Source: Bolinopsis microptera
Lineage: Eukaryota; Ctenophora; Tentaculata; Lobata; Bolinopsidae
Length of the DNA stretch: 64,000 nucleotides
NCBI RefSeq assembly: GCF_026151205.1
Contig: NC_087078.1
Span: 19,197,765-19,261,764 of the forward strand
Direction of reading: 5' to 3'
A program made the position numbers and the translations under genes. The notes beneath the pieces were generated by a model. That model was not told the origin of the DNA, did not search any database, and was given only the letters and a program-made list of their open reading frames with translations. Positions 17,380 through 64,000 of this stretch are shown here, in pieces. The first letter of the stretch is position 1, and the number at the start of each line of letters is the position of its first letter.

Positions 17380-20300
17380 TCACGTGTTACTATCATTCCC
17401 CTCACCACCCTGGTCATGTTCAGACTCACTCTTAATCTGTATCCCTGCTTGGAGAGCCGGCACAGGACTTTGTAAATTCGGCACACTACTTTGCAGTGCT
17501 GGCATGACTCGAGTCATGCGCGGCGCGGGTGATAAACACGGTATTATACCCAGTCCTCCTTGAGGGGACGATGAGTGTATTGGGGCAGGTTTTAGAGATG
17601 GTGGCCCGATGGGTCTCATGGGGTGTCTGATAGTGTTGTTAGATAGTCCACTCATGGGTGATAATACAGGAATACTTGGGACAACTGAATCACAGATCTT
17701 CACCAGCTTGGTGGGCTTTTTCAGCAGAGCTTCATCTCCATCACATCCAACGGGGCGTTTCCTCTTCTGAGCGATAATATCGGGTGGGCTTGGAATAGTT
17801 TTGAGAGAATCAGGCCCGAAAGGGCTGGACATGGTGGGCATGTGTCCCTGGGACATGGGAGGCGGTGTGAGCATTGGTCCGACGTCTGTAGGAACTGGGT
17901 TGTATTCAGAAAGAGAGCTCATAGCTTCACATTTTACTACAGTTGGAGGAGGACTAGCCACCTTCACAGAGCTCATATCGTAGTCTGACGAGATAACGGG
18001 AGATTCCTTTGTTTCTTGTTTGGGTTTCACGGGTTTGATGTTGTTTTTGTGGTGGTGGGTGAGGATCCTGAGTATACTATGCAGAGTCAGAGGAACAGAC
18101 AGGTATCTACTGGCAATCCCACTGAGAACTGATGTTTTCTGTGTGTCAGATGAGGATACGGCCACCACAGTTTCCGACCTGATCTGTGAGGAGAAGCTGG
18201 TCTGTGAGGAGAAGCTGGTCTGTGGTGAAATGTCCATGTTCATAACACAGAGCTGGGGTAGCTCGGGGTGAGCGAACACGAACTCGATGGAGCAGCCCGG
18301 TTGAAGGGTAATGTCAACTGTGGTCTGGTTGCAACATGTTGTTGTTGGGAGGTTGTCATGACAACTTAATATCAGCCTGTTGTAGACTGTTTGCTGTCGT
18401 AACATGTTGATAATCACTGGGACCTGTAAGTTGTTTAACAATATTTAGTTTTATATGACTAATAATGGAGGTGAAACGTGTTTTCTATAAATTAGATATA
18501 TTATATTATTATATTATTATATATTCATTTCATTTCATTGTACATATATATGACGCATAAATGTTAAAGCACACGGCATTTTCCTGACCATGGCTAAGAT
18601 AATTTCAATAATGTGTCCTCCAAACCTGGGATGGGTGTGAGAAGGGAATACGGTGAATTTCAACAGCTTTCTCATCGCCACTGCAGGGGAGGTAGTACAC
18701 GTGGTTCAGTTTGTTGTGTTTCAGAGACTTATCCTTGTTTTGCAGCACCTGGCTCAACCTGTAAACATGTTCATAATTACGTTACGAGTAGTATTAAAAA
18801 CAATAACGATCGTTATTTTCGTGAAACCAACCCGTTTAATCCAATAAAACAACGAAATTAATCTCCTTGGCCTAAGGCAAAAGAACAATGTCCCACAATA
18901 CCACAGAACAATGTGTCACAATACCACAGAACAATGTGTCACAATACCACAGAACAATGTCCACAATAACACAGAACAATTTCCACAATAACACAGAACA
19001 ATGTCCCACAATAACACAGAACAATGTCCCACAATAACACAGAACAATGTCCCACAATACCACAGAACAATGTCCCACAATACCACAGAACAATGTCCAC
19101 AATACCACAGAACAATGTCCCACAATACCACAGAACAATGTCCCACAATACCACAGAACAATGTGTCACATACCCCGCATTGTTGAGCAACAACTCCAGG
19201 AATGTGGTGGACACTGCCTCAACTTTAATGAGACTGTTGTTTCCTAGTTTCTTGAGGAGAGCGTTCATCTTAGATACGGTCATTACAAGGGGCCTACTTA
19301 GCCTCATTACAAATGTGGCTTCCACATATTCTGAAAAATACAACTCACGATGAGGAGATCAAATTATCTTGATCTAGATTATAAATAATTTTGGGCATCA
19401 TCCTTCTAAATTAAGAGAATATATTGAATTTACTTTTGTCAATTGGTCCCGCTGCTCACTAAACCAATAATTAAAAGAACAAATTAGGTAATATTACAAA
19501 CAGTACAGCGGGTTAACTTACCGGAATTAACTTTAAGGGACAACTGTTTAAACTCGTTGTTTCTGATAAACAAGTTTTGTGTTGGTAGTTGGTTGGTATT
19601 GGAACACTCCACTCCGATACTCACACTAGCTGACTCCTCCCCCAAAACATCACTCCCAGTCCCACTTTCTAGTTTCACTTTCACTTTCTCTTTCACTTTC
19701 TCTTTGGCTTTCACTTTGTTCTCACTGTTAATCAGTGACGTGTTGTGGAAGTACAGTATCTTGATGCCCATGCCACCACGTGACTTTATCACGTGACCAG
19801 TGTGGGTGTTGTTGATAGAGTAGGAGGTGGGAGGGTCTGGACTATTACTCATCACAATCAGGTCACTCTCCAGCGATCTGATCGATATATCGTATTTAGA
19901 ATTTATATACGAGGAATCATGATCATCAATATAGAGGCAGGTATAAATCGTTCATATTTGCAAAATTTATTGAGCAACAATATAATTGGACAAATTATTT
20001 TAAAAAACTGTGAAGAATGTTTTATCAAAAAACACATGTCCGTAACCAAACCTTAGAGCAGAAAACAGGATAGGTCGGACTCTGGGCTCCAAAGGAATGT
20101 TAAAAATGCTGATGAACCCCTTGAGGTGTTCCTGGAATTTGTTAAAGTCCCACTCGTTAAGCGTGTCCGCTATGTGGGGCTGGTCTTCTGGTTTTCCCTC
20201 CGTTACCAAACTCACTTTAGCTCCCGTACTCTGTGTTTAGTGGTAACGTTAGCAATCCAGGTATTCATATATTGGAGCTATTCACATATATATTGGGTAT

Positions 20301-26853: not shown

Positions 26854-29748
26854 TCAATCAAATGCTAGAGAAAAGAAGTATGTTTTAAGTTTGGTCTTGA
26901 AAGATGTAACTGACTCAGCTGATCTTATGTCGTATGGCAAGGAATTAAATACTTTAACTGCACAGTGACTAAAAGCTTTCTCTGTGTTTACATAGTTAGG
27001 AGAGGGCGGAAAACTAAGGTAAAAATAATCATTATCAAGACGTACATTTTTAAAACTTTGCTGCCTAGGAGATATCAACTCTTTTAAGTAAGGAGGAGCT
27101 ATATTATTTAAACACTTGTAGGCAAGTAGGGCAATCTTAAAATCTATTCTAAATCTAACTGGTAGAAAATGAACTTTCTTAAGTAGTGGAGTAGTGTGTG
27201 CCTTTCTTCCTCTCCCGAAAATAAATCTTACAGCAGAATTTTGCACCTTCTGTAAACGACTTAAATCATAAGAGCTCAGTCCAAAATATACGCTATTGCA
27301 ATAATCAATTCTAGAGAGTACTAGAGCATGAACAAGCTGAATCTTAAGGTTAAAAGACAGTTTTGATGCAATAAACCACAAATTTCTGATCTGAATATTA
27401 CATGCTTGAACCACTGACGTAATCTGATCACTCATTGAAAGATAACTGTCCAAATACAGCCCAAGACTCTTCACAGTTCCACTAACAACATGTGGCTCTT
27501 GATCCTTAACAATCTGTAGAGATGCTGGAATATTTGTTGAGTCAAATTTAGAGGATATAACGATGACTTCAGTCTTAGAAGAATTCAGTTGAAGGAAATT
27601 GTTTGTCATCCATTTCTTGATATCAGACATACAGTGTTCCATATTGTGCTCTAGCTGTGATGGGTCATCAGAATCAAGAGTGAAATACAGCTGGGTGTCA
27701 TCAGCATACAAATGAATACAGCACCCATGCATACTTGCAATGTTCTCAAGATCTTTGGTGTACAATATGAATAGCAGGGGGCCAAGGATTGAACCTTGTG
27801 GCACACCTATCTCAAGAACAGTTGCTGAGGAAGACGAATCCTTGACTTTGACACAAAATGAACGGTTAGCCAAGTAGGACCTGATCCATGTAAGAGCAAT
27901 GCCTGTAATGCCATAAGCAGATCTTAGCTTCTTGATTAATCTTGGGTGATTGACAGTATCAAAGGCAGCACTCAAATCTAGAAGTAAAAGAACAACTTTA
28001 GTTTTCTTGTCAATAGTTATCAAGATGTCGTTATGGATTCTGGTTGTTGCAGTTTCACAGCTATGAAACTTCCTATAGCCGGACTGAACTTTAGAAAGCA
28101 AGTTGTTATCCTCAAGATAACTGGTGAGCTGTATAGATACACACTTCTCAATGATTTTTGACAAGAATGAGAGATTGCTAATAGGCCTATAGTTAGATAG
28201 AGATTCACCGTCAAGGCCACGTTTCTTCAAACTTGGACGAATGAGAGCCTCCTTAAGTTTTATAGGAAACTCACCTTTAACTAATGATTCATTGACTATA
28301 AATGAGATCAGAGGAAGGAGTTCTGGGAGACACTTGATGAGAATCTTTGTAGGTATGGGGTCAAGATCACAGAATTTGTTAGACATATTCTTTATGATGC
28401 TTACTAGTTCTTCATCAGACACATGACGGAATTGTACTATCTTTGGGCTATTAGAAAGAGGAACAAATTCATCTGAGTTAGGAGAATCTTGCGATTGTTG
28501 TTCTAAATAAATGTTGTTGTATATGTTGTCGACCTTTGATTTAAAGAACTGTGCAAAGTTGTTAGCACTCTCAAGATTTGAAGAGCAAGAAGGTGTAGTA
28601 GTACTAACTTTTTCTTTATTGAGCAACTTATTAACGATGGAATAAGTCTTTTTAGCATCACCTGCACTATCTTGTAACCTTGTTTTGTAGAAGTGATCTC
28701 TTGTGGATACAATGACTGAGGATGCTCTCTCTGATGCTTTCCTGTACAGTCGTTTATAATCTGGGCAATCATGATTCTTTTGATACAGTCTCTCAATCTT
28801 TCTTCTCATTGCTTTTGCTTGTTGACAGTGTGTAGACCACCATTCAGCGTTATGATCTTTTCTTGGGATGAAAGTTTTTTCTTTAGCATGCTTGTCCAAA
28901 ATACTGCTCAACTCAGACTCATAGATATCAACTGCACTATCGAGGTCATTGAAGCAATCAGTGTCACATAGTTTTGACTTAAGAATATCCTCAACAAAAG
29001 CATCTAGTTCTATGCAAGCAATGTTTCTGTAAGTAATTGGTTCTAGAGTGCCTATGGGTGCTGGAGATACATTGCAATTGAAAGCAACAAAGTAGTGGTC
29101 AGACGATGTACCAGAATCAGTAATGACAGGATCTAGAACTTCAATGCAATCGTGAGTAAAAGAACCATCCCTGGTAATTACAAGATCTAATATGCCCCCA
29201 TCTCTGTGTGTTGCAGCTGAAATTTGTTGCACCCACCCACAAGACTTAAGTAGTGAATTAAACCTTTGTGCAACTGAATCATTTTCGTCTTCAATGTGGA
29301 TATTAAAGTCACCCATGATCAAGGGCTTTCCAGGTTTGTCTACTAAATCAACCAAGAGTTGCTCAAAGTCAGTTAGAAATTGGGGGATGTTAGCACTCTG
29401 AGATGTGGAGGTGCCAGAACGGTAAATTGAAACAATTCGTAGTATATCTCCAGAAGATGATTTGAAGGTACATTCACAAGACTCAAACGTTTTGAATCGC
29501 TTGCACTTCTGAGGAGTCACTTTAAGACTTTTCTTATATAGAACAGCAACACCTCCTCCCCGCCCAGCTCTTGGCTGGCTATGAATGGAATATCCAAGTT
29601 CTTTCATCTCAGAAAACTTAGCATTGTCATCTTTTCTCAGCCAAGTTTCTGTAGCACAGCAAATATCAGTATCAAAGTCTTCAAGCAATTGCATAACTCC
29701 AGCAGTTTTATTGCAGATGGATCTGCAATTGAACAGGGCAAAGTTCAT
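26854..29748 (-). CDS. LINE ORF2: AP endonuclease plus reverse transcriptase
   Basis: 964 residues. The N-terminal apurinic-like endonuclease shows ETWL (residues 34-37), MGDFNIH (145-151) and SSDHYF (215-220), holding the usual catalytic Glu, Asp/Asn and His. The reverse transcriptase follows: NYRPISNLSFLSKIIEK (about 519-535), LLLDLSAAFDTV (588-599), GVPQGSILGPLLFILY (648-663) and the active-site YADD (681-684). The C-terminal part (LARLQKVQN-like region, SRLQKVQNSAVRFIF) is typical for the CR1/Jockey clade. No RNase H domain seen. The protein nicks target DNA and primes cDNA synthesis from the element's RNA. Every catalytic residue is present, so the copy may be young or active. Confidence 0.95.
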   Translation of the reverse strand: MNFALFNCRSICNKTAGVMQLLEDFDTDICCATETWLRKDDNAKFSEMKELGYSIHSQPRAGRGGGVAVLYKKSLKVTPQKCKRFKTFESCECTFKSSSGDILRIVSIYRSGTSTSQSANIPQFLTDFEQLLVDLVDKPGKPLIMGDFNIHIEDENDSVAQRFNSLLKSCGWVQQISAATHRDGGILDLVITRDGSFTHDCIEVLDPVITDSGTSSDHYFVAFNCNVSPAPIGTLEPITYRNIACIELDAFVEDILKSKLCDTDCFNDLDSAVDIYESELSSILDKHAKEKTFIPRKDHNAEWWSTHCQQAKAMRRKIERLYQKNHDCPDYKRLYRKASERASSVIVSTRDHFYKTRLQDSAGDAKKTYSIVNKLLNKEKVSTTTPSCSSNLESANNFAQFFKSKVDNIYNNIYLEQQSQDSPNSDEFVPLSNSPKIVQFRHVSDEELVSIIKNMSNKFCDLDPIPTKILIKCLPELLPLISFIVNESLVKGEFPIKLKEALIRPSLKKRGLDGESLSNYRPISNLSFLSKIIEKCVSIQLTSYLEDNNLLSKVQSGYRKFHSCETATTRIHNDILITIDKKTKVVLLLLDLSAAFDTVNHPRLIKKLRSAYGITGIALTWIRSYLANRSFCVKVKDSSSSATVLEIGVPQGSILGPLLFILYTKDLENIASMHGCCIHLYADDTQLYFTLDSDDPSQLEHNMEHCMSDIKKWMTNNFLQLNSSKTEVIVISSKFDSTNIPASLQIVKDQEPHVVSGTVKSLGLYLDSYLSMSDQITSVVQACNIQIRNLWFIASKLSFNLKIQLVHALVLSRIDYCNSVYFGLSSYDLSRLQKVQNSAVRFIFGRGRKAHTTPLLKKVHFLPVRFRIDFKIALLAYKCLNNIAPPYLKELISPRQQSFKNVRLDNDYFYLSFPPSPNYVNTEKAFSHCAVKVFNSLPYDIRSAESVTSFKTKLKTYFFSLAFD

Positions 29749-29777
29749 ACTCTGACATTCTGACTTAGAGTTTGTAG

Positions 29778-31442: not shown

Positions 31443-31450
31443 ACACGTGA

Positions 31451-32591
31451 CAGGTGGCTAGTCTCATAAACCAATCATATTTGAGCTATTTATGCTTAAA
31501 TATTCAAGTTCATTTTTTCATGGTTTTTAAGTAATCGTGAAAATAATGTAAAAATTTTAAATACAAATTTGTGTTGATTGACGTTGTCAACCTTTTCAGA
31601 TCGTTGCTCTGCGAAGCAAAACAACAATCGCGCGGCCGGCCGGCCGCAAAAAGCTTTCTCGCCGGCCGGCTTGTAGGTTTACAACCTATTAGGACGCGCG
31701 CCGAGTTGGACTCGTCGACGGTCCAATATATGGAACAGATATTCTACGAGTATCACCCGTTAACGGCCGGCCGGCGTGCATGTTTCGCGTGCACGAGAGG
31801 TATACAACGTGTAGCAAGCTTGCTCTATCCAGAGCCGTTACGCTTGCAGTAGCGCGCGCCCGCCTCATGGCTGTAAAAGGGCTCTAAAAATTACAAGCGC
31901 GCCCGCAACGGCGCGAAAGCACATGGTTAGGTGAACTAAATGGCCACGATATAGATACAGCTGCACATTTGTGCGCGGCAGGTCTGCAACGTATGACAGC
32001 AAACAAGTCAAAATATAATTGCGCCCGTGCGGCGTGCATGCTTTCGGTACGGAAATATTCACCTAGCCATGAGTCTACCCGTACTGCGTGACGCGCTTGT
32101 TTCACGCGCTTGTTTCCTGTGCCACCTTTGGCGGTCGCACGCTACTGTAAGCGAAAGGGTTCTGGATAGAGCAAATGGAAATATAACCTAGTGCGCCATA
32201 ATTTTTCACTTTATATTGATCGTGTTTTATTTGGGTTCATATCATGCAATGATCATATTTTACATCTGTGGGCAATATTTTTAATATTTTTGACTAGTTT
32301 TATTTAATGTTTATTTATTGCTGTACCGCGCTGCAAAGACTTATGATTAGGTGAATTAATGATTGGAATACGTTTTATCGTTTATTATAATTATTGTCTA
32401 TACCTTTTTTACGCATAGAGCCGCAGTGATATAACATAAAAAGGTATGCTCACTATGCATGCAACGTGTATCAAGTAAATGGACGAGCTAATTTTAACCT
32501 GGTTTAGTTTTTTTTAAAACTTCCATCCCATTATACAATATCAACAATGTAATAGTATATAGTGGTGTAATTATTTAAAAAATTCATGTGC
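31451..32591. other. GC-rich block upstream of the LINE, then AT-rich spacer
   Basis: 31620-32150 is markedly richer in CpG than its surroundings, with repeated ccggccgg motifs, cgcgcg tracts, and an inverted pair in which ctctatccagagcc (about 31824) reappears inverted as ggttctggatagag (about 32157). Short frames on both strands resemble nothing known. It might be the 5' end or promoter of the LINE or a separate element of roughly 340 bp bounded by that pair. No gene called. Confidence 0.4.
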
Positions 32592-32927: not shown

Positions 32928-32941
32928 ATATAAATTCAAAT

Positions 32942-47800: not shown

Positions 47801-50800
47801 AAGTTTTTTATAATAAGGTCTATTTGTTAAATCCTTTGTTAAATCGTTTTTAACTTTAGAGTGTGAGAAGGTTTTTTAAAGAAATGTTTCTCACACTATA
47901 GAGGCGAAAATGACTCTTTTGTTAACATGTTTTTGTGCGTTAAGGAAATTTAAAAACCGCGATAACACGCCCATGACGGGCTCTAACCACAATAACAATT
48001 TTGCAATTTTAACATGAAGTTAGCTGGTAGTCGGGCTAATGCTCAGAGGGTGGTATATTTTGTTTTAAAGTGTGAACTGCGAGGACGAGATAGATGTTTT
48101 TTGTTATAAACTGATAAATAGCTTAATTGAACCTATTGTATTTTTATATAACACCTTTCCTCACTCCATCCTGAGCTAGACTAACAATGAGAATCTTTGT
48201 GTTTGCACCAATAGTAGTAGTATACACGCCATCTCCATGCAGTCCATTAAAACTATAAAAACAGAGTGAGGCTGGTCGTGGTGTTATGACGTTTCCTTTG
48301 TAAGTATCAAATATCATTACCGAAAAGTCAAGAAAAATGAAAATATAAACCTAAAAATATAAACGTACGATGTTTCTGCGTTCGTGAATTCCGCGTTATT
48401 TGACCATTATTGATCTCCACGAATAATAAATACACGATCTAAAATAACCGAGTTTAACCGGCGCGGAGGTTCTTTTTAGTTTAGTTTCATATTTCTCACC
48501 AGGCAGCACTAGAGATAGTTTAGTTAAAACTAAACACATTTCTCACCAGGCAGCACTAGAGATAGTTTAGTTAAAAGTAAACACATTTCTCACCAGGCAG
48601 CACTAGAGATAGTTTAGTTAAAAGTAAACACATTTCTCACCAGGCAGCACTAGAGATAGTTTAGTTAAAACTAAACACATTTCTCACCAGGCAGCACTAG
48701 AGATAGTTTAGTTAAAACTAAACACATTTCTCACCAGGCAGCACTAGAGATAGTTTAGTTAAAACTAAACACATTTCTCACCAGGCGGCACTAGAGATAG
48801 TTTAGTTAAAACTAAACATATTTCTCACCAGGCAGCACTAGAGATAGTTTAGTTAAAACTAAACACATTTCTCACCAGGCGGCACTAGAGATAGTTTAGT
48901 TAAAACTAAACATATTTCTCACCAGGCAGCACTAGAGATAGTTTAGTTAAAACTAAACATATTTCTCACCAGGCGGCACTAGAGATAGTTTAGTTAAATC
49001 TAAACACATGTCTCACCAGGCAGCACTAGAGATAGTTTAGTTAAAACTAAACACATCTCTCACCAGGCAGCACTAGAGATAGTTTAGTTAAAACTAAACA
49101 CATTTCTCACCAGGCGGCACTAGAGATAGTTTAGTTAAAACTAAACACATTTCTCACCAGGCAGCACTAGAGATAGTTTAGTTAAAACTAAACACATTTC
49201 TCACCAGGCGGCACTAGAGATAGTTTAGTTAAAACTAAACACTTTTCTCACCAGGCGGCACTAGAGATAGTTTAGTTAAAACTAAACACATTTCTCACCA
49301 GGCAGCACTAGAGATAGTTTAGTTAAAACTTAACACATTTCTCACCAGGCAGCACTAGAGATAGCCAGGAGACAGATTACAGAAGGTGCACAGATCCTGG
49401 ATCTTAACTTTGACGACGGAATGATTGACGGGGAGAAAGCCATGGCTCATTTTGTGAACCTGATTACGTGTGAACCTGACGTTTCTAGAGTCCCACTCTG
49501 CATCGATTCCTCGGACTTTCAGGTCAGTTCTCTCGTCCTAACTCCAATAATTGATCGACCCTTACTTTTACCCGCTTAGCAACTCTTGTGGAAAAAACTT
49601 GATCATAACTTTAACGCATTAACAATTCAATTCACTTTCCCAAATATTGAAGCTACCTGACCTCAATCGTCCTTATTTATATTTGTTTTGAACAAATATC
49701 ATTTTAACGAGTACGCCCAATTGGCTGCCCCGCCCCCCCCCCCCCCCCCCCCCCCCGGCCCCCCCCCCCCCCCCCCCCCCCCGCCAAGATAAACTACACA
49801 GGTAATAGAGGCGGGGCTGAAGTGCACTCAAGGGAAGTGTATTGTTAACAGTATCAGCTTGAAGGAGGGTAGGGAGGAGTTCCTTGCCAAGGCAGCTATT
49901 GTTAAAAGATATGGTGCTGCTGTGGTTGTAATGGCTTTCGATAAGCAGGGCCAGGTCAGCAGAAAGTATATCAACTTTCATCATCCAGGCTGTTAAATTC
50001 GCCAAATTTTCGTCAAAAAGTACGGCGTATTTAGAGTTCTCAGAAAGTACGCGAATAATTCGCCAATTTACAACTTCAAGTTTTAATTTTTAGGGCTGTT
50101 AGTGTTAAATTCGCCAAAAAATGCGCAGAAAATTCGGTAAAAATGCGGCAGTGGGAACTCGCAGCATTCTCGAGTACTAACCAGTAACCACGCACGTGTT
50201 GCGGGAAGCACATGTTTTGGCAATATTCCACCATACAAAGCCAACTTTCGTGAACAATTTGATGTGGGCACGTGATTTCCTGTTTCCGTATTTTTTTAAA
50301 TGCGGCAATTTTCAAAAAAAAATCGTACGCGAATTTAATTCGATTAATACGTTTAGTGCGAATTTAACAGCATTGTTTATCATTCCAATAATTTGTAGTT
50401 GAATTAGTTAAATACATACATCACATTTATGTGAATCAATAATTCAACATATTAATTAATAATTTAACCACGACCGCGACCGTCTTTCCACGTATTGTTT
50501 TTAAAACTCTAGTATTACCTGCTACATAATATACCCTATACAGGCGGACACGTTTAAACGGAAGATAGAGATCTGTAAACGGTCCTATGATCTGTTGGTG
50601 CATGAGGGTGGGTACAACCCTACAGACATTATATTCGACCCTAACCTGCTAACTATTGGAACCGGGCTGGTGGAGCATGCCGAGTATGGCCGGGACTTCA
50701 TCAGGGCCACTGAGTGGATCAAGGTTTTAAAATATACAATATATACATTCTTGGAAATTTCGGATTTACAATTTACATCGGTTAAAATATCTGTAATTTG

Positions 50801-53800
50801 AAACCTGGCTGTGATTAATTTGGTTCTCCTTTTAATTGTAGTATTTTGTGATTTTGTAATTTTTAATTTTTAATTTTTAATTTCAGAAAAACCTGCCCGG
50901 TGCCCATGTGTCTGGTGGACTTTCAAATCTTTCCTTTGCTTTCCGGGGAAACAGAATTATCCGAGAAGCGATGCATTCTGTCTTTCTGTCTTATGCTACT
51001 CAGGTAAGCTTAAACTCTGATATATCAGTATGATATGGAAAGACTGACGAGAGTTCTGAATGTGTTGCTGACTGCTGACTGCTGACTGCTGACTGCTGAC
51101 TGCTGACTGCTGACTGCTGACTGCTGACTGCTGACTGCTGACTGCTGACTGCTGACTGCTGACTGCTGACTGCTGACTGCTGACTGCTGACTGCTGACTG
51201 CTGACTGCTGAATATCGCACGTAGCTATCGCCATATAATGGAGGTCGTTAGTGTAAACCATATTCGTAAGTTCAAATGTTTTATTTCATAACACCCCTCA
51301 TTCTGCAGTTTGGTCTGGATATGGGGATAGTTCACGCTGGGAATCTCCCTCTTCTCAAAGATATTGACTCTACTCTCAAACAACTGTGCGATGATCTCAT
51401 ATGGAACCGAAACGGCGAGGAAGTCACCGACCTCATGCTGCTCTACGCAGAGGTTTGTAATTGGAATTTGGATACTGAACGGTGTCATATTATTCAGTTG
51501 TTTTAAACAACTTATCGGTTTTAAGTTATAGTGCAAAGATTTAGAATTGGCGGTTATTTACAAATTCGAAGTTCCTAGCGTTTCAAATGGAAATACCGTG
51601 AGACCCTCTATTATTATTATCAGAGATCTCAACCGCCAGTACTAAATTGTTTACGCTAATATAAGATACCTAGTCTTGTGTTGTTAATTGTTTTATTTAA
51701 TTTGTATTTTTGTGAGTCCTCTACCAGAGCTATTGCAGAAAGTTAAAGGTAGTGGGGGAAAGAAGAAGATGACAGACGATGATTGGTTCAAGAAACCGCT
51801 CGACGCGCGACTATCTGATGCCATAGTAAATGGAATCGACAAACATATAGTGACGGATGTTAAAGAACTACAGTTAACGACAGACATAGAACCTTTACAG
51901 ATTATTGAGGGTCCCCTGCTAGATGCTATGGGGATTGTGGGAGATCTCTTCGGATCCGGGAAGATGTTCCTTCCTCAGGTGCTTTCAAAATACAGATCAC
52001 AGTTCACACAATAAAACAATTAGCTAATTTCTTTATGAAGGTCAAAAATTGCGTTAATTACGTCTTAGTTTAAACTGACATTTCCTAATCAGTTTGTCTT
52101 TATTTTTATTGGAGCAATATGTTCAAGGTGATAAAAAGCGCGAGAGTAATGAAGAAAGCTGTTGCCTACCTCACTCCTTTTATTGAGGCATCAAAAGTTG
52201 AAGGACAGAATTACAAAGGTAACGATCAAGGATTTTTATCTGTCACGAAAAAGTCATTTTAAATAATCAAATTTTATGATTTTGCCTTCACTATATTTTT
52301 CCTGTGTCCACTGCTCCACGATTTCCTGCCCCAGATTTTACAGTCCTCTAAAATCTAAATCAATGCTAGAGTTGTTATAATAATGGGGATAGAGAGCAGG
52401 CCCATGAGTTGATATCACTGAACAACAGGATACAGCTCACAGCGCACTTCTTATTCTTGTTCCCTCCTTTAAAGGTACGATAGTGCTAGCCACAGTGAAG
52501 GGCGATGTCCACGATATTGGTAAAAACATTGTTGGTGTAGTGCTGGGATGCAACAACTACAGGTATTTATAATTCTCTACAGGTATTATATTACGCTGCT
52601 AGCTTTTATATAACTACTTATCTAATGAAGTTAGATCAGGATGAGCAAGTGTATCGGGGGGTTGATCTCTGATACCCTACTATATCTCTGTTGATACTAT
52701 ATTTCAATATAACTCTGCTGCAAAATTAATGGTTTGCCTCTACAGGGTTATTGATTTGGGGGTGATGTGTCCTTTAGAGAGGATACTGTCGACAGCAGAC
52801 AAGGAGAAGGCAGACATTATTGGAGTGTCGGGTATGTGGAATATAATTAGCAGATTATCATTACCGAGTACTCCTTACTCCTTTCGCGAATAATAACCTC
52901 TACGGTTATAACCTCAACGGTTATAACCTCAATCATAACCTTTATATCATAATCTTAATTATAACCTCTATATCATAGCCTCAATTATAACCTCTATATC
53001 ATAACCTCAATTATAACCTCTATATCATAACCTCAATTATAACCTCTAGTATAAACTGGTTTCCTTATCCCACAGGTCTGATAACTCCATCTCTAAGGGA
53101 GATGGTGAACATAGCAACTGAGATGAACAACAGGGGGATGACTACACCTCTACTTATTGGGGGAGCAACTACCAGCAGGTAGTGTGTGCTTTCTTAGTAG
53201 TGTGTGCTTTCTTAGTAGTGCAGTATCTTACAGTCGTCTCAGTGGTAACTACCAGCAGGTAGTGTGTGCTTTCTTAGTAATGCAGTATCTTACAGTCGTC
53301 TCAGTGGTAACTACCAGCAGGTAGTGTGTGCTTTCTTAGTAATGCAGTATCTTACAGTCGTCTCAGTGGTAACTACCAGCAGGTAGTGTGTGCTTTCTTA
53401 GTAATGCAGTATCTTACAGTCGTCTCAGTGGTAACTACCAGCAGGTAGTGTGTGCTTTCTTAGTAATGCAGTATCTTACAGTCGTTTCAGTGGTAACTAC
53501 CATGCCAGCAGGTAGTGTGTGCTTTCTTAGTAATGCAGTATCTTACAGTCGTCTCAGTGGTAACTACCAGCAGGTAGTGTGTGCTTTCTTAGTAATGCAG
53601 GTAGTGTGTGCTTTCTTAGTAATCTTACAGTCGTCTCAGTGGTAATTTATTACGTATGTTGGTAATTACTGGTAATTACAGGTAATTGATTACCTCAGAG
53701 GTACTGCTTTGTCTCCTCTTTCATCTTACAACTACAATAACATTCTATTCAGGAAGCACACACTACAATAACATTCTATTCAGGAAGCACACACAACAAT

Positions 53801-56416
53801 GACATTATATTCAGGAAGCACACACTACAATAACATTCTATTCAGGAAGCACACACAACAATGACATTATATTCAGGAAGCACACACTACAATAACATTT
53901 TATTCAGGAAGCACACACTACAATAACATTATATTCAGTAAGCACACACTAACATGACATTATATTCAGGAAGCACACACTACAATGACATTATATTCAG
54001 GAAGCACACACTAACATAACATTCTATTCAGGAAGCACACACTACAATAACATTCTATTCAGGAAGCACACACTACAATTACATTCTATTGAGGAAGCAC
54101 ACACTACAATAACATTCTATTCAGGAAGCACACCGCGGTAAAGATCTGGCCATCTTACCCCGACTTGTGTATCTACGTCCCGGATGCGTCCCGGGCCGTT
54201 AACGTGGCCACGTCCCTCGTTAACAAGGACCCGAAGTATATGGGGGACATTAGGAAGCTGTATGAGAAGGTGCAGCTGGATCACACCAAGGTTCTTCAGG
54301 TAGGAGATTTTTTTGAAATGAGTTTCCAGTTAGATACAGGTAGTTGTATTGCCGATCTTTTGGCAGGGCGACGGTTTACTTATTTTGAATTGAGTATATT
54401 TTTTACTGTGTCTGGTAACTCAGTAGGTATACCTACCTACTTAACTCGGTTTCTATTTTTACAGAAGAAACAAATAACCCCTCTACTAGACTGCAGAAAG
54501 AAGAGATTCCAATGCACCATGCCCACCCCTCCGACTCCAAACGAATTAGGTAATTATTTGTTTTATCACTTTATTATCAGACGAATACACTAATACAGTT
54601 GCCTGATTAAATATAAAATAACATACCGGGGTTACGTGTGTTTGAATTAATGTTCTAGAAAAGAAAAAAACAATTTCAGGGGTCCAAGTATTTGATAGTT
54701 ACGATCTGAACGAAGTCGTTGAGCTGATCGATTGGAAGCCGTTTTTCGATGTGTGGCAACTTCGTGGTCGTTACCCCAATCGGTCTTATCCCAAACTATT
54801 CGATGATAAGACAGTAGGTACGTAAGTCTTGTAGTTGTACACTGTCATAAGCTGTAGTACATATATAATTATATATTACATTACATTTTTTTAAATGGTT
54901 GCCCCCCCCCCCCCCCCCCCCCCATTGTGATTTAATTTAAATATCCTAATGACCCACCAGGAGCTGAAGCAAAGAAGCTGTTTGGTGATGCTCAGGAAAT
55001 GCTTGCGGAGTTGATGACGTCACTGGAAGGGAAGGCTGTGATTGGTCTGTTTCCAGCTCACTCCCAGGAAGATGACGTGATTATTCAGCACGGGGGACGG
55101 GATTTAACCTGTTACATGCTCAGACAGCAGGTTCAGTTCTAACCCTGTCTTTATTTCTTTAACCTATATACTATATAGTAATCCATTCATTACAAGTATG
55201 AAGACAAAACTGAGGAACCATATCTCAAATCAGTATCCATATCGCAGATAAAGTCAGGGAAAGAGGACGTGTACCTGAACACATCTGATTTCATTGGTCC
55301 ACCTGGGTCACATGATCACATGGGCATGTTCTGCTGTTCTATTTTTGGCTCTGTTGCCATGGCAGCTAAGTATGAAGATGCGGGTGATGATTACAATAGT
55401 CTCATGGTTAAGTCTCTGGCTGATAGATTGGTGAGCAAACTATTTTCCACCCTTATTTATGTTTGTTCAAATTCAATACAATCATATATAAGTATTTAAG
55501 TTAGCTTTGTAGATTTCTCCAGATGTGATCTATATATTATTTGGGTTAAGTTTAGTTTTATTGTCACCAGGTTGAAGCATTAGCTGAGCATCTCCACGTG
55601 AAAGTTCGCACAGACCACTGGGGATACGATAACAACGAGGACCTGGACATCGCCGACCTTCATTCTGTGAAATACCAGGTACATAAGTACAGACGATTAT
55701 TCGTAAATTATCATTGTCGGACCTTTATTAAACGCACCATTTTAAAATGTAGATTGTGGACCGATCTAAAAGCTCTTTTATCAGACCCTCTTGGAAAAAA
55801 TTAGATACTAAGGACACCAGTAGGGAAGAGTTGTGACTATACATTAGAAGTTAGTAGTAGTACTATTTGTATAGTCCCACTGTAAATATCCTGACTCAGG
55901 GCACAAGGCCAGCCCCCGGTTATCCGTCCCTACCTGACCACGCCCTTAAAGACGTGCTCTGGGACCTTCTCAGCGTGTCCGGCTCCATTGGAACTGAGCT
56001 GACTGACTCGTACGCGATGTCACCCCCTGCTAGTGTGTGTGGACTGTATATTGCACACCCGGACTCCTTTTATTTCAACCTGGGACTTGTAGGACGGGAT
56101 CAGGTGAGATTTATTCTTTACTCGTTAGTTCTGCTGCCTGTGTGCTACTTATTTTCCTTCTTTTAGTTTGGAATACTTATTTAATAGAGGTTATGGTTAA
56201 CTCCACAGAATGTTAAATCAACCTATTTGAGTTACCACTTATCTACCGTAACTGCAATCCAGCCTTATATTTATAATAGTAGTAGTATACTACTACTATT
56301 ATAATAGCTCTATACTTCATCAGGTGGAGGATTACGCCCAAAGACAGAATGTTAGTGCGAGTAGTGTTGAGATATCACTAGATACTGTGTTAGGATACGA
56401 GCCTGCCAAGAGATGA
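41811..56416 (+). CDS. MTR: Cobalamin-dependent methionine synthase
   Basis: Exons: 41811-41817, 41947-42045, 42191-42282, 42870-42962, 43152-43314, 43640-43815, 44060-44213, 44446-44549, 44910-45057, 45219-45331, 49349-49522, 49802-49954, 50544-50723, 50887-51003, 51309-51452, 51739-51978, 52128-52218, 52475-52562, 52746-52831, 53076-53178, 54125-54299, 54465-54549, 54680-54817, 54961-55130, 55248-55430, 55571-55678, 55900-56103, 56324-56416. Phases agree throughout; 1226 residues (human 1265). It methylates homocysteine from 5-methyl-THF through methylcobalamin in the cytosol. Homocysteine domain: [10 protein letters not shown], zinc Cys in GLNCALG (about 247) and GGCCG (about 310-311). Folate domain: [30 protein letters not shown]12 domain: DVHDIGKN (axial His about 762). 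Activation domain: RPAPGYPS (about 1131-1138). Nothing essential is missing. Exon 1 codes only MT plus one base. Confidence 0.97.
42711..42765. repeat. Poly-C tracts in MTR intron 3
   Basis: Two C runs with a short interruption (gcccccgctcaa), about 105 bp before the exon 4 acceptor. Confidence 0.9.
43098..43114. repeat. Poly-C run in MTR intron 4
   Basis: About 16 C, 37 bp before the exon 5 acceptor, positioned where a polypyrimidine tract would begin. Confidence 0.85.
43532..43616. repeat. 9-bp tandem repeat in MTR intron 5
   Basis: About nine copies of gcttagtta. Lies 24 bp upstream of the exon 6 acceptor. Confidence 0.9.
44264..44351. repeat. Perfect palindrome, 44-bp arms, in MTR intron 7
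   Basis: Centre between 44307 and 44308 (tcatatg|catatga). The arms end in tattttagtatg on the left and its inverse on the right. No spacer, no mismatch seen. Confidence 0.95.
44622..44897. repeat. 8-bp tandem repeat in MTR intron 8
   Basis: About 34 copies of gtaaccaa with variants gtaaccat, gtaaccga and ataaccaa. Starts about 70 bp after exon 8 and ends about 12 bp before the exon 9 acceptor, so it fills nearly the whole intron. Confidence 0.95.
45531..45949. mobile_element. MITE with TA target site in MTR intron 10
   Basis: 419 bp flanked by TA (45529-45530 and 45950-45951). Terminal inverted repeats CCTTAATTCCCAAAAATTTG and the inverse of CCTTAGTTCCCAAAAATTTG differ at one base. The interior repeats caaatttttgggcg-type motifs in both orientations. 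No coding capacity; fits a non-autonomous Tc1/mariner-type element. Confidence 0.85.
46233..46238 (-). promoter_or_regulatory. Poly(A) signal of the VWC-repeat gene
   Basis: AATAAA on the minus strand, about 50 bp after the stop codon of the nested gene; orientation and spacing fit. Confidence 0.6.
46289..47380 (-). CDS. Secreted protein with eight VWC-like Cys repeats, nested in MTR intron 10
   Basis: 363 residues from the Met before a clear signal peptide ([19 protein letters not shown]); the open frame extends 44 codons further upstream but that part is not signal-like. The mature protein is eight tandem modules of about 35 residues, each with six Cys in the pattern C-x14/15-C-x2-C-x-C-x7/8-C-x4-C, e.g. 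[20 protein letters not shown] then [16 protein letters not shown]. Acidic linkers (DDD, DEE) join them. This resembles the first half of von Willebrand factor C domains found in matrix proteins and BMP modulators. No intron. Antisense to MTR and wholly inside its 4-kb intron. Modules 2 and 3 are nearly identical, also in DNA, indicating recent internal duplication. Function unknown; extracellular matrix or signalling is inference. Confidence 0.85.
   Translation of the reverse strand: MKIMLVIVILVLAAVSVRGDRPVPVGCEHKGETYRAGERFKDDCNNCGCTRTGEVVCTKMNCDNDEDKATCEHKGREYNAGDAIRDDCNICHCLRDGNVVCTSKACDRDDVEATCEYKGEKYEAGEFKDDCNICHCLRDGNVVCTSKACDRDDGEATCEYKGEQYEAGERFKDDCNNCGCTRTGEVICTEKNCDAMCEYKGKHYEAGDFKDGCNLCHCLGDGKVICTADGDDCDDDTIVICEYKGEQYEAGERFHDNCNNCGCTRSGKVVCTKKNCDEETKDTCDYKGEQYEEGDRFKDYCNLCRCLRDGAVACTKKICDDDKAWAACEYKGKEYNEGEQIRDDCNVCTCLRNGAVVCTKKTC
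48483..49364 (+). repeat. 47-bp minisatellite carrying the MTR exon 11 splice acceptor
   Basis: The true junction is tttctcaccag|GCAGCACTAGAGATAGCC. The same acceptor and the first 16 exon bases occur in every unit, 47 bp apart: the first AG is at 48502, the true one at 49348, exactly 18 periods. Between copies lies tttagttaaaactaaacac, which holds an 8-bp dyad (gtttagtt/aactaaac) and a branch-point-like ctaaac. A minority of copies has ggcggcac instead of ggcagcac. Entry at a decoy acceptor reads AALEIV and then TAG. Confidence 0.97.
49731..49782. repeat. Poly-C tract in MTR intron 11
   Basis: About 50 bases of C with one gg and few interruptions, ending 19 bp before the exon 12 acceptor (actacacag). 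Confidence 0.9.
49988..50371. mobile_element. Inverted-repeat element in MTR intron 12
   Basis: The ends GCTGTTAAATTCGC and GCGAATTTAACAGC are exact inverses about 384 bp apart; internal ttcgccaa and ttaaattcgc motifs recur. No coding capacity. Target-site duplication unclear, so the superfamily is open. Confidence 0.65.
51066..51212. repeat. 7-bp tandem repeat in MTR intron 14
   Basis: About 20 uninterrupted copies of tgctgac. Apparent frames of repeated SQQSAV come from the 21-bp triple period. Confidence 0.95.
52905..53045. repeat. About 26-bp tandem repeat in MTR intron 19
   Basis: Degenerate copies of tataacctctatatcataa and cctcaatt. Ends about 30 bp before the exon 20 acceptor. Confidence 0.8.
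53168..53640 (+). repeat. 62-bp minisatellite carrying the MTR exon 20 splice donor
   Basis: The true donor is ACTACCAGCAG|gtagtgtgtg at 53178. The last 11 exon bases plus the intron start recur with donor positions at 53258, 53320, 53382, 53444, 53511 and 53573 and, in partial form, at 53600. The first step is longer (80 bp) because ttagtagtgtgtgctttc is doubled. Read-through of the true donor meets TAG within the first intron codon (AGC AGG TAG). Confidence 0.96.
53733..54133 (+). repeat. 31-bp minisatellite carrying the MTR exon 21 splice acceptor
   Basis: The true junction is ttctattcag|GAAGCACACCGCGG at 54124/54125. The acceptor plus the first nine exon bases recur every 31 bp from 53752, twelve periods upstream. 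Variants include tatattcag, one attcagtaagc and one attgagg. Entry at a decoy reads RKHTLQ and then TAA in the common unit. Confidence 0.96.
54902..54923. repeat. Poly-C run in MTR intron 23
   Basis: About 22 C, 37 bp before the exon 24 acceptor (gacccaccag). Confidence 0.9.
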
Positions 56417-57518: not shown

Positions 57519-57553
<35 letters not shown>

Positions 57554-60394: not shown

Positions 60395-61252
60395 ATGAAG
60401 CTTTCCGTAATTTTCGCACTTATTGGGCTTTCTCAGACTTTAAAGTAAGTAACTCATAACTTTAGAGTAAGTAACTCATAACTTTAGAGTAAGTAACTCA
60501 TAGCTTTAGAGTAAGTAACTCATAACTTTAGAGTAAGTAACTCATAACTTTAGAGTAAGTAACTCATAACTTTAGAGTAAGTAACTCATAACTTTAGAGT
60601 AAGTAACTCATAACTTTAGAGTAGTTAACTCATAACTTTAGAGTAAGTAACTCATAACTTTAGAGTAAGTAACTCATAACTGGATCAATTCATTATATTG
60701 TCAGTAACTTTATGCAATATTACTACTAATGCTGGTTATCAGTAGTAGTATGGTGAACTGGACCTTACGTAATCTCTGAGGGATAGGGAACCCGGCCCTA
60801 ATAACAATAAATAACAGTAACACCTGCAGCAACCTGAAATGGGACGCAGACTGCTCCAACCTCGACCCAGCTGCTGCCAAGCATGTTGAAGATAAGATAG
60901 CCGGCAGCAAGGTATACCTCATCGGCCTCACTTATTGTGGATGGTGTACAAGAGCCAAAAGTGTCATCCAGAAAATGGGTTAGAAGTTGAATTTCAACTT
61001 TCACTGTTTAGTTTCAACTTTCACTGTTATATGTTATAAATATAACATATAACAGTATGTTTTCTGGGTAAATATGTTATAAATATAACTATATCAAGTT
61101 CTCATTAAACTTCTATTTAAACTTCTCATTAAAATTCAGCTTTACTTGATGAATGGACAAATGTTTTAATTGGGCGCGATTGAGCTATAAATATATCATT
61201 GATTAACACCTAAAATACGCAGGATTTGACAAGAGTGATATTGAGGTAGATG
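60395..61252 (+). CDS. 5' part of a secreted glutaredoxin/thioredoxin-like protein
   Basis: Exon 1 60395-60444 encodes a short signal peptide (MKLSVIFALIGLSQTL); exon 2 60830-60978 encodes NNLKWDADCSNLDPAAAKHV, EDKIAGSKVYLIGLTYCGWC and TRAKSVIQKM; exon 3 begins at an acceptor of the aatacgcag|GATTTGAC type and would encode GFDKSDIEVDV. Phases agree (2, then 1). The beta-strand, CGWC, TRAK and following helix have glutaredoxin order (glutaredoxins usually CPYC), with a thioredoxin-like CGxC site. A signal peptide would place it in the ER or outside the cell. The first acceptor copy at 61222 is one of about 66; which copy is the true exon 3 start cannot be told, and it may lie beyond the right edge. 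Remaining domain not in the window. Confidence 0.6.
60437..60681 (+). repeat. 22-bp minisatellite carrying the splice donor of exon 1
   Basis: The true donor is GACTTTAAA|gtaagtaactcata at 60445. The unit actttaga|gtaagtaactcata follows with GT positions every 22 bp up to 60665, ten copies after the true one; one has gtagtt. Skipping the true donor reads Lys and then TAA. Confidence 0.96.
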
Positions 61253-64000
61253 TAACACCTAAAATACGCAGGATTTGACGAGAGTGATATTGAGGTAGAT
61301 GTAACACCTAAAATACGCAGGATTTGACGAGAGTGATATTGAGGTAGATGTAACACCTAAAATACGCAGGATTTGACGAGAGTGATATTGATTAACACCT
61401 AAAATACGCAGGATTTGACGAGAGTGATATTGATTAACACTTATTATACGCAGGATTTGACGAGAGTGATATTGAGGTAGATGTAACACCTAAAATACGC
61501 AGGATTTGACGAGAGTGATATTGATTAACACCTAAAATACGCAGGATTTGACGAGAGTGATATTGATTAACACTTAAAATACGCAGGATTTGACGAGAGT
61601 GATATTGATTAACACTTAAAATACGCAGGATTTGACGAGAGTGATATTGATTAACACTTAAAATACGCAGGATTTGACGAGAGTGATATTGATTAACACT
61701 TAAAATACGCAGGATTTGACGAGAGTGATATTGAGGTAGATGTAACACCTAAAATACGCAGGATTTGACGAGAGTGATATTGATTAACACCTAAAATACG
61801 CAGGATTTGACGAGAGTGATATTGATTAACACTTAAAATACGCAGGATTTGACGAGAGTGATATTGAGGTAGATGTAACACCTAAAATACGCAGGATTTG
61901 ACGAGAGTGATATTGATTAACACCTAAAATACGCAGGATTTGACGAGAGTGATATTGATTAACACTTAAAATACGCAGGATTTGACGAGAGTGATATTGA
62001 TTAACACTTAAAATACGCAGGATTTGACGAGAGTGATATTGATTAACACTTAAAATACGCAGGATTTGACGAGAGTGATATTGATTAACACTTAAAATAC
62101 GCAGGATTTGACGAGAGTGATATTGATTAACACCTAAAATACGCAGGATTTGACGAGAGTGATATTGATTAACACTTAAAATACGCAGGATTTGACGAGA
62201 GTGATATTGATTAACACTTAAAATACGCAGGATTTGACGAGAGTGATATTGATTAACACTTAAAATACGCAGGATTTGACGAGAGTGATATTGATTAACA
62301 CTTAAAATACGCAGGATTTGACGAGAGTGATATTGATTAACACTTAAAATACGCAGGATTTGACGAGAGTGATATTGATTAACACTTAAAATACGCAGGA
62401 TTTGACGAGAGTGATATTGATTAACACTTAAAATACGCAGGATTTGACGAGAGTGATATTGATTAACACCTAAAATACGCAGGATTTGACGAGAGTGATA
62501 TTGATTAACACTTAAAATACGCAGGATTTGACGAGAGTGATATTGATTAACACTTAAAATACGCAGGATTTGACGAGAGTGATATTGATTAACACTTAAA
62601 ATACGCAGGATTTGACGAGAGTGATATTGATTAACACTTAAAATACGCAGGATTTGACGAGAGTGATATTGATTAACACTTAAAATACGCAGGATTTGAC
62701 GAGAGTGATATTGATTAACACTTAAAATACGCAGGATTTGACGAGAGTGATATTGATTAACACTTAAAATACGCAGGATTTGACGAGAGTGATATTGATT
62801 AACACTTAAAATACGCAGGATTTGACGAGAGTGATATTGATTAACACTTAAAATACGCAGGATTTGACGAGAGTGATATTGATTAACACTTAAAATACGC
62901 AGGATTTGACGAGAGTGATATTGATTAACACTTAAAATACGCAGGATTTGACGAGAGTGATATTGATTAACACTTAAAATACGCAGGATTTGACGAGAGT
63001 GATATTGATTAACACTTAAAATACGCAGGATTTGACGAGATTGATATTGATTAACACTTAAAATACGCAGGATTTGACGAGAGTGATATTGATTAACACT
63101 TAAAATACGCAGGATTTGACGAGAGTGATATTGATTAACACTTAAAATACGCAGGATTTGACGAGAGTGATATTGATTAACACTTAAAATACGCAGGATT
63201 TGACGAGAGTGATATTGATTAACACTTAAAATACGCAGGATTTGACGAGAGTGATATTGATTAACACTTAAAATACGCAGGATTTGACGAGAGTGATATT
63301 GATTAACACCTAAAATACGCAGGATTTGACGAGAGTGATATTGATTAACACGTAAAATACGCAGGATTTGACGAGAGTGATATTGATTAACACTTAAAAT
63401 ACGCAGGATTTGACGAGAGTGATATTGATTAACACTTAAAATACGCAGGATTTGACGAGAGTGATATTGATTAACACTTAAAATACGCAGGATTTGACGA
63501 GAGTGATATTGATTAACACTTAAAATACGCAGGATTTGACGAGAGTGATATTGATTAACACCTAAAATACGCAGGATTTGACGAGAGTGATATTGATTAA
63601 CACGTAAAATACGCAGGATTTGACGAGAGTGATATTGATTAACACTTAAAATACGCAGGATTTGACGAGAGTGATATTGATTAACACTTAAAATACGCAG
63701 GATTTGACGAGAGTGATATTGATTAACACTTAAAATACGCAGGATTTGACGAGAGTGATATTGATTAACACTTAAAATACGCAGGATTTGACGAGAGTGA
63801 TATTGATTAACACCTAAAATACGCAGGATTTGACGAGAGTGATATTGATTAACACTTAAAATACGCAGGATTTGACGAGAGTGATATTGATTAACACTTA
63901 AAATACGCAGGATTTGACGAGAGTGATATTGATTAACACTTAAAATACGCAGGATTTGACGAGAGTGATATTGATTAACACTTAAAATACGCAGGATTTG
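61196..64000 (+). repeat. 42/49-bp minisatellite carrying the exon 3 splice acceptor, running off the window
   Basis: About 66 copies. The unit is the end of the intron (gattaacacttaaaatacgcag) followed by the start of the exon (GATTTGACGAGAGTGATATT). A longer 49-bp version with gaggtagatgtaacacct occurs at the left end (61223-61880), where the two types are mixed; from about 61910 only the 42-bp type remains, with small cctaaa, cgtaaa and cttaaa variants. Entry at any 42-bp copy reads GFDESDID and then TAA. The 49-bp copies probably preserve the original exon continuation (IEVDV). The right end of the array is outside the window. Confidence 0.97.

Follow-up and report, generated by a model that had tools for sequence, protein, structure and literature searches.

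Minisatellites at splice junctions in genes of the ctenophore Bolinopsis microptera

Junction arrays and their host genes

The window, by which we mean the whole 64,000-nucleotide stretch of Bolinopsis microptera contig NC_087078.1 that was analysed, contains a MED1 gene (minus strand), an MTR gene and a glutaredoxin-domain gene (both plus strand), whose introns carry six minisatellites at splice junctions (arrays A to F). The spliced genes gave Pfam matches to Med1 for MED1 (1.9e-26; match 103-443), to Met_synt_B12 (6.5e-94) and Pterin_bind (4.7e-55) for MTR, a B12-dependent methionine synthase, and to Glutaredoxin (2.7e-10) for the third gene. Arrays were called by Tandem Repeats Finder (TRF), and junctions were taken from flank reading and gene splicing. 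A minisatellite is understood here as tandem, head-to-tail copies of a unit of ~10-100 bp with high identity; arrays A to F have units of 22-62 bp and 91-97% matches (TRF). The first-pass annotation had described six arrays, with units of 23, 47, 62, 31, 22 and 42 bp, that contain or start at junctions of genes identified by homology: TRF recovered all six, splicing bore out the junctions, and Pfam bore out the genes as MED1, MTR and a glutaredoxin gene. Non-junction arrays had been left uncounted in that annotation.

Array A (18882..19173, minus strand; 23-bp unit x12; donor-type) occupies part of MED1 intron 18759-19173. It begins at the donor at 19173 (CAATGCGGG/GTATGTG, junctions being marked by a slash) and includes at most two exonic bases; the last base of the upstream exon (19174..19330, minus strand; splicing and Pfam) is 19174, and the junction falls at residue 378, within the Med1 match. 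Array B (48483..49364, plus strand; 47-bp unit x19; acceptor-type) lies in MTR intron 45332-49348 and contains the acceptor at 49349 (CACCAG/GCAGCACTAG), such that each unit holds 16 exonic nt of the downstream exon (49349..49522, plus strand; splicing and Pfam). Arrays C (53168..53640, plus strand; 62-bp unit x6-7; donor-type) and D (53731..54133, plus strand; 31-bp unit x13; acceptor-type) occupy opposite ends of a single MTR intron (53179-54124), and their units are unrelated. Array C includes the donor at 53179 (CTACCAGCAG/GTAGTG) and 11 exonic nt, read from 53168, of the upstream exon (53076..53178, plus strand, ending ...LLIGGATTS; splicing and Pfam). Array D spans the acceptor at 54125 (CTATTCAG/GAAGCACAC) and takes in 9 exonic nt of the downstream exon (54125..54299, plus strand; splicing and Pfam), with GGATTSR/KHTAVK as the protein across the junction.

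In the glutaredoxin gene, array E (60437..60681, plus strand; 22-bp unit x11; donor-type) contains the donor of intron 1 (60445-60829) at 60445 (ACTTTAAA/GTAAGT), with 8 exonic nt in the unit; exon 1 (60395..60444, plus strand) encodes a sequence, MKLSVIFALIGLSQTL, that is signal-peptide-like by eye. Array F (61196..64000, plus strand; 42-bp unit, ~67 copies; acceptor-type) fills the end of the window within intron 2 and extends to ~64100 (window numbering), ~100 bases past the window, into the true exon, the acceptor of which reads ACGCAG/GATTTGACGAGAG with the junction at 64079 (window numbering). A seventh array, G (36 bp unit, GGATACTACCT/GTAAGTACTC), lies at a later donor of the same gene, outside the window. 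Pfam domains continue across the window junctions of MTR and MED1 and across the second glutaredoxin junction.

A genome search with the units of arrays B and C (E <= 0.001, very common words skipped) matched only their own loci, and a dispersed repeat or transposon-borne satellite was rejected for these two units on that basis. One non-junction 32-mer array is present at two genomic places.

Frequency of junction contact

Introns of chaperonin, myosin, Ras and kinesin genes, picked without regard to repeats, formed a blind sample. An intron was admitted if an HMM exon hit lay on either side of it; of 185 pairs of adjacent hits, 125 were resolved, and those left out comprised 40 with a missing stretch of the model, 14 that were weak and 6 without a junction. 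Because unresolved gaps were excluded, the striking arrays MYOi, the KIN13 acceptor and MYOh are absent from the counts. Removal of four introns of the near-duplicate genes KIN4 and KIN6b left 121 introns in 49 genes, 10 of which (10/121) bear a junction-touching array. Among 41 arrays with a TRF score of at least 80, 10 lay within 3 nt of a junction, compared with 3.7 expected under random placement (P = 0.002); seven are donor-type and three acceptor-type, distributed over nine genes and all four families. The count fell to 6 vs 3.3 expected under strict exon overlap (P = 0.10), to 6 vs 3.0 for arrays of ~3 or more copies (P = 0.07), and to 4 vs 2.7 with both restrictions (P = 0.27). An analytic version of the placement gave P = 0.03 (score >= 80) and 0.055 (score >= 50). 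Composite TRF periods (207, 109) raise the expectation, to 10 vs 4.3 (P = 0.005) when left uncorrected.

The window set comprised 39 introns of the MED1, MTR and glutaredoxin genes (window plus the next 4 kb), including one MED1 intron (18435-18625) whose acceptor fails the GT/AG check. By TRF edges, 5 of 15 arrays scoring at least 80 lay at a junction (B, D, E, F and G; 3.0 expected, P = 0.15), as did 6 of 20 scoring at least 50 (3.6 expected, P = 0.12); the TRF edges of the best rows miss arrays A and C, both of which touch the junction only by eye. From the blind and window counts it follows that the process recurs, and that preferential nucleation amounts to at most ~2-3 fold and is unproven. 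Junction-grown repeats recur, as the first-pass annotation had proposed. Donor- and acceptor-type arrays were seen on several contigs, and neither their host genes nor their units are related; they are not much commoner than expected amid repeat-filled introns. Its further proposal that duplication seeds at junctions agrees with the full blind count, and lost ground under strict overlap and in the window genes. The blind excess (P = 0.002) is unpredicted by purely random birth.

Seeding at junctions would imply hotspots, at which damage tied to transcription or to splicing (R-loops, stalled forks or RNA-templated repair) gives rise to distinct junction arrays; we regard this as possible but doubtful. 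The excess is found mainly in the bin nearest the junction (observed/expected 10/3.8 at <=3 nt, 3/2.0 at 4-20 nt and 13/18.8 at 21-400 nt), and arrays covered 10 of 242 real junctions vs 5 of 336 pseudo-junctions shifted 80, 120 or 200 nt inward (Fisher P = 0.045). In addition, one MTR intron bears arrays at its two ends, and one glutaredoxin gene bears them at three junctions. Against this, pseudo-junctions shifted by 40 nt were covered in 6 of 212 cases (P = 0.31 vs real; all shifts pooled, P = 0.074), strict overlap, the higher copy numbers and the window genes give P = 0.10, 0.07 and 0.15, respectively, and kinesins are the single family with an excess of their own (6 vs 2.4 expected, P = 0.02). 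Furthermore, junction arrays and interior arrays (10 vs 31) were alike in period, copy number, purity and length (MWU P = 0.43-0.70). A two-fold excess, should RNA-supported junctions bear it out, would suggest mutation linked to splicing or to transcription.

Word counts in the genome also bear on hotspots. The donor word AGGTAAGT occurs in triple tandem 1347 times genome-wide vs 11 for the reversed word (singles, 10764 vs 7968), and the acceptor word 1363 vs 319 times (singles, 60126 vs 30183), with 37, 228, 41 and 372 triple tandems for four neutral words; these are match counts, in which a few long arrays dominate among the matches listed, and they are therefore supportive only. Random seeding predicts less than the tandem excess of the donor word. 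Flanks were read for 14 arrays taken from the top of the two lists, 6 of the 7 with the donor word and 8 with the acceptor word: three lie at a coding junction, two near one (~20 nt), two sequences are all array, and seven have no recognisable exon. Among the donor-word arrays alone, 1/6 lies at a coding exon, 4/6 do not visibly do so, and 1/6 was not judgeable. The three at coding junctions are a donor-word array (L070; Reprolysin, 3.6e-4) and two acceptor-word arrays, one next to a UQ_con match (L077; 1.3e-14) and one next to an open frame without a Pfam match (L076). The two within ~20 nt of a likely junction adjoin a zinc-finger frame with Pfam support (L079) and, on the opposite strand, a sequence that we take to be sushi-like (L073).

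Splice sites within the repeat units

Further examples lie outside the window. In the blind sample, a kinesin exon (...INTSLSELG/GTAAGT) is followed by 52 copies of a 33 bp unit with 26 exonic nt, and a myosin P-loop exon (GSGKSTALHYIVHYYAQ/GTAGGA; Myosin_head, 3.4e-11) by 22 identical copies of a 40 bp unit (MYOi), the latter falling outside the blind count since the neighbouring exon is missing. Two-copy stages occur in KIN5 (53 bp x2, 98% matches) and KIN21 (38 bp x2, 94%). The array MYOh has the look of an acceptor array, but it could not be placed at a conserved exon. Automatic estimates of exonic overlap fail where copy length varies (C, KIN13 and KIN21a), and the sequence itself was used there.

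The first-pass annotation had also described each array as a bank of decoy splice sites. Copies were searched with a 22-mer around the site, a search that is biased toward copies resembling the site and that gave none for A and KIN19. In the 12 arrays for which it matched six or more copies, the GT or AG of the putative internal sites was intact in 348 of 349 matched copies; the bank is borne out in part, within this search bias. A donor in each unit together with an array abutting the exon was found for C, E, G, KIN5, KIN13, KIN21d, KIN22 and MYOi; array A also abuts its donor, and its inner copies read GTATTGT. Internal sites score near the used (homology-predicted) site in most arrays, while for D, E, RASh and KIN21a the exon-proximal site exceeds the internal mean by 1.1-2.0 units. 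With up to ~110 near-identical sites per array, the predicted choice of the outermost site is the interesting and testable part.

A composite account, which we consider rather unlikely, would make junctions real birth sites of minisatellites (2-3 fold over the intron interior), with rows of up to ~110 sites kept functional, the outermost one picked by the spliceosome through exon definition, and a copy-number rheostat of unproductive splicing. Selection might likewise maintain rows of intact sites as a regulatory device, the copy number setting the fraction of productive splicing; this is very unlikely. In favour of such a device, most arrays have internal sites whose scores come near that of the used site, and the core dinucleotides are nearly invariant, with 1 variant vs 16 for random adjacent column pairs (12 arrays, P = 0.027) and 23/24 invariant core columns (P = 0.053). 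However, both P values are borderline, site-like copies are the ones that the search tends to pick up, and arrays that are young or have been homogenised show no variation in any case (MYOi has no differences). Unit length has no frame preference (multiples of three in 5/15 junction arrays), and the stronger exon-proximal sites of four arrays argue against the device as well.

Probable origin by straddling duplication and relation to known systems

Junction minisatellites probably arose where a local tandem duplication happened to span a junction, was tolerated through splicing and then expanded. The introns of this genome are rich in short local tandem duplications, and a duplicated segment that straddles an exon-intron border would take a bit of exon and the splice site along. 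Such a duplication would be tolerated because the copies on the intron side are spliced out when splicing continues at the site next to the exon, be it the first donor or the last acceptor; that copies lie on the intron side, as earlier annotated, held for the arrays. The array would then expand like any minisatellite, leaving a longer intron with a row of near-identical, intact sites. We infer both birth by straddling duplication and tolerance by splicing from the DNA sequence, and use of the exon-proximal sites from the conserved reading frame, which demands them.

Alternatively, duplication of an exonic AGGT segment may have made the introns themselves, with the arrays as remnants, for which two papers offer precedents (PMC3443670; PMC4974935). 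Some units do hold AG and GT near the junction (KIN22, KIN21 and G), but in 14/15 junction arrays the likeness of the unit to the opposite splice site was under the 95th percentile of shuffles, G being the exception (above the 95th percentile and equal to the shuffle maximum). The array accounts for anything from 0.03 to 0.95 of intron length, and the units at either end of MTR intron 53179-54124 are unrelated to each other; intron gain is thus largely refuted and highly improbable as the source of these arrays. Misannotation or misassembly is scarcely credible, even though tandem arrays are hard to assemble and the junctions come from homology rather than RNA, given that the exon joins fit the protein model without indel in 95/121 introns and within one residue in 106/121, that Pfam domains continue through the MTR and MED1 junctions of the window and through the second glutaredoxin junction, and that the arrays are many and unrelated, some with just two copies.

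Straddling duplication with tolerance by splicing bears on how introns lengthen by this route. Among the titles listed in literature searches, none announced a survey, on the scale of a genome, of junction minisatellites at donors and acceptors, subscription papers being mostly outside reach. Introns from tandem arrays were reportedly treated by Zhuo et al. 2007 (PNAS), and Hellsten et al. 2011 is said to be related earlier work.

The IFI6-type minisatellite supplies splice donors, and two downstream repeat units serve as donors (PMC4526556); it resembles the donor-type arrays in abutting an exon, but is a single donor-type locus, whereas donor and acceptor arrays occur here in many genes. The IFI6 case may pass from an isolated curiosity to a member of a recurrent class, acceptors included. 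In potato RdRp, a tandem duplication over an intron-exon boundary likewise spans an existing boundary and inherits its splice signals (Ma, Lan and Niu 2016, PMC4974935), although there one duplication gave a new intron, unlike the mostly longer arrays in pre-existing introns described here. Variable internal tandem repeats in human primate-specific paralogues may form novel introns (PMC2812944); minisatellite expansion, exon-intron boundaries included, alters gene structure in both cases, but those are young paralogues with possible novel introns, whereas conserved coding exons are intact here. Intron-creating tandem duplication shares the extra splice sites and an mRNA that may stay unchanged, yet it makes introns, and the units here do not supply both intron ends. 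Direct repeats of 4-30 bp at or near intron borders, from comparison of 5' and 3' borders (PMC11782384), are similarly placed, but are paired across two borders, whereas the arrays here stand at one end. Hormiphora has 13 chromosomes, and TRF called 13% of its genome (PMC8527503).

The arrays offer natural test constructs for spliceosome choice among tens of near-identical sites, a question of long standing. They also accompany a warning for gene predictors: a simple home-made ab initio predictor recovered 97/125 of the homology-resolved introns, so its introns were kept out of the blind counts, and 23 of the 28 that it missed are at least 500 bases long.

Splice-junction arrays of the window genes

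Tandem Repeats Finder (TRF) returned 72 rows across the 64 kb window (genome: 264.65 Mb in 232 contigs, of which 13 appear to be large), and these include all six arrays, with their units, that the first-pass annotation had placed at splice junctions. Gene structures were derived by reading the array flanks, continuing 4 kb past the window on the same contig, assembling the genes, and checking them against Pfam, which confirmed three: a MED1 subunit (− strand), a cobalamin-dependent methionine synthase (MTR; + strand), and a glutaredoxin-domain gene. The placement holds for all six, each of which touches a junction required by the encoded protein. Array A (18882–19173, − strand, 23 bp) starts at a MED1 donor with at most 2 exonic bases; exonic bases per unit are 16 in B (48483–49364, 47 bp, MTR acceptor), 11 in C (53168–53640, 62 bp, MTR donor), 9 in D (53731–54133, 31 bp, MTR acceptor), 8 in E (60437–60681, 22 bp, glutaredoxin donor), and about 22 in F (61196 to beyond 64000, 42 bp, glutaredoxin acceptor). 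C and D occupy opposite ends of one 946-base intron, and their units are unrelated. A third array of the glutaredoxin gene (G, 36 bp, donor-type) lies just beyond the window.

The 4-kb MTR intron at 45332–49348 also holds a nested antisense cysteine-rich repeat gene (46292–47386, − strand), the exon of which contains coding repeats of about 130 bp. Two long ORFs (26857–31457, − strand) belong to what we take to be a non-LTR-type retroelement with endonuclease- and reverse-transcriptase-like sequence. Poly-C runs of 25–55 bases occur in introns and intergenic DNA (14968, 42710, 49728, 57520, and 60162).

Recurrence and possible preference for junctions

Because the window itself was picked for repeats, the multi-exon genes used for replication were taken solely for belonging to one of four families: chaperonins, myosins, Ras proteins, and kinesins. 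Introns in the 64 fetched stretches (L041 was left out of the counts) were set between neighboring HMM exon hits using reading frame, splice signals, and model continuity; 125 of 185 neighboring hit pairs were resolved, and dropping near-duplicate genes gave 121 introns (91,342 bases, 49 genes) with 41 arrays of TRF score ≥80. Not every family hit was used: intronless or clustered Ras hits, several hits to chaperonins and kinesins that had few introns or none, a kinesin of 13.7 kb, one member (the second copy) of a myosin pair, and two very distant myosin exons were omitted. As omissions were mostly for size, the longest introns are under-represented in this blind sample.

Recurrence of junction arrays is secure: 10 of the 41 arrays, in nine genes, cross a junction or sit within 3 nt of one (7 donor-type, 3 acceptor-type). 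They include kinesin donor arrays at GTAAGT following INTSLSELG (33 bp × 52, 26 exonic bases per unit), at GTAAGT following DIFRYCA (about 53 bp × 8), and at GTAAGA after DSKLT (53 bp × 2, 98%), and a kinesin GGNS acceptor array (21–24 bp, 23 matched inner copies); two others (one chaperonin, one myosin) are two-and-a-half-copy repeats ending 3 nt before the exon. Uncounted gaps hold a 40 bp × 22 array at a myosin P-loop donor (GTAGGA following HYIVHYYAQ; 0 differences in 20 aligned copies) and a 26 bp × 112 kinesin acceptor array.

The first-pass annotation had further proposed that arrays nucleate at junctions; here the preference is only modest and varies with the criterion (P = 0.002–0.27). 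When each array's unit was placed randomly in array-collapsed introns, exon overhang allowed, the 10 junction arrays compared with 3.7 expected (P = 0.002); by family, observed vs. expected was 1 vs. 0.45 for chaperonins, 1 vs. 0.70 for myosins, 2 vs. 0.47 for Ras, and 6 vs. 2.4 for kinesins. Adding lower-scoring arrays gave 12/74 vs. 5.6 (P = 0.008), and arrays of about three or more copies (score ≥100) gave 6/31 vs. 3.0 (P = 0.07). Under a strict criterion of at least one overlapped exonic base, the corresponding values were 6/41 vs. 3.3 (P = 0.10), 7/74 vs. 4.8 (P = 0.20), and 4/31 vs. 2.7 (P = 0.27). Arrays covered 10 of 242 real junctions, and pseudo-junctions shifted inward by 40, 80, 120, and 200 nt were covered in 6/212, 1/142, 2/112, and 2/82 cases (P = 0.074 with the 40-nt shift; P = 0.045 with it set aside, because it can still overlap arrays crossing the true junction). 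Seeding of duplications at junctions is possible. In the 39 introns of the window genes, counted together with the following 4 kb, 5 of 15 arrays touched a junction by TRF edges vs. 3.0 expected (P = 0.15), where one of the five lies outside the window and A and C touch only by eye; the window is not exceptional for such a repeat-rich genome.

Genome-wide, three tandem copies of AGGTAAGT occur 1347 times vs. 11 for the reversed word (10764 vs. 7968 as single words), TTTCAGG gave 1363 vs. 319 (singles 60126 vs. 30183), and other words gave 37, 228, 41, and 372; one array's copies are counted many times, so these counts have a heavy tail. Among 14 word arrays taken in list order and judged by their flanks, 3 lie at a coding junction (2 with Pfam support), 2 are about 20 nt or less from a likely junction, 2 are not judgeable, and 7 have no visible adjoining exon, so that junctions are not the sole reason why donor-bearing repeats are common. 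One 32-bp donor-bearing array stands at two sites with similar flanks (C1:36576–37703 and C1:761375–762150; L066/L067), neither with a recognizable coding exon.

Rows of splice sites

Seventeen junction arrays were scored: seven of the window region, two in gaps (KIN13gap and MYOi), and eight of the blind ten. GT/AG is intact in 348 of 349 matched inner copies (hand-summed) of the 12 arrays with at least six copies, and in the single matched inner copy of each of three more; A and the kinesin array KIN19 had none. Inner-site scores are mostly near that of the used, homology-predicted site. Core columns held 1 variant vs. 16 in random adjacent columns (P = 0.027), and 23 of 24 were invariant (P = 0.053). 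This intactness is inflated, because copies were retrieved by their resemblance to the sequence surrounding the site; young arrays also show little variation at any position. The data do show that inner sites of these arrays are not eroded.

Since conservation of the protein requires the first donor or last acceptor, and intron definition would favor inner sites, we infer that the outermost site would be chosen, as in exon definition. Inner-site use would bring in a stop in KIN13, F, and G, where in-frame reading was done; by inspection, in the KIN21 acceptor array it would extend the protein in frame by GGNSMFS. In the KIN22 array (L064, C2:16577933–16578346), the unit joins acceptor-like TGTTCAG, 21 coding bases, and a donor, and could form a row of 7-codon micro-exons.

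Origin and precedents

These introns do not look to have been born by duplication, because in 14 of 15 junction arrays the unit lacks likeness to the opposite splice site of the same intron. Units B and C had no matches elsewhere in the genome in a search skipping very common words, and so probably arose in place. Near-perfect two-copy repeats number 39 in the fetched loci, and 28 of them have 0–6 extra bases past the second full unit, which serves as a rough gauge of microhomology. Unit lengths do not favor the reading frame (5 of 15 are multiples of three), and junction and interior arrays (10 vs. 31) do not differ in period, copy number, purity, or length. All these data fit ordinary local duplication, which would come first and be followed by minisatellite growth; copies are probably tolerated because exon-proximal splicing would hide them.

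Junction arrays are real and recurrent, and single elements of the kind are already described: repeat units serving as splice donors in the human IFI6 transcript (PMC4526556), a tandem duplication spanning an intron–exon boundary in a potato gene (PMC4974935), and minisatellites at exon–intron boundaries in human paralogues (PMC2812944). No survey treating donor- and acceptor-type arrays as a recurrent class was found in the literature searched, which took in few subscription papers.

Two other features of the fetched loci concern introns and exons themselves. The near-identical kinesin genes L044 and L045 differ by one intron, of 1062 (C13:5068692–5069753) vs. 122 bases (C13:4981878–4981999); the longer resembles a mobile insertion and has opposite-orientation repeats near both ends. 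In the myosin locus L011, adjacent exons (C3:9154013–9154205 and C3:9154363–9154487) match nearly the same model positions (105–167 and 102–167) and are a candidate mutually exclusive pair.
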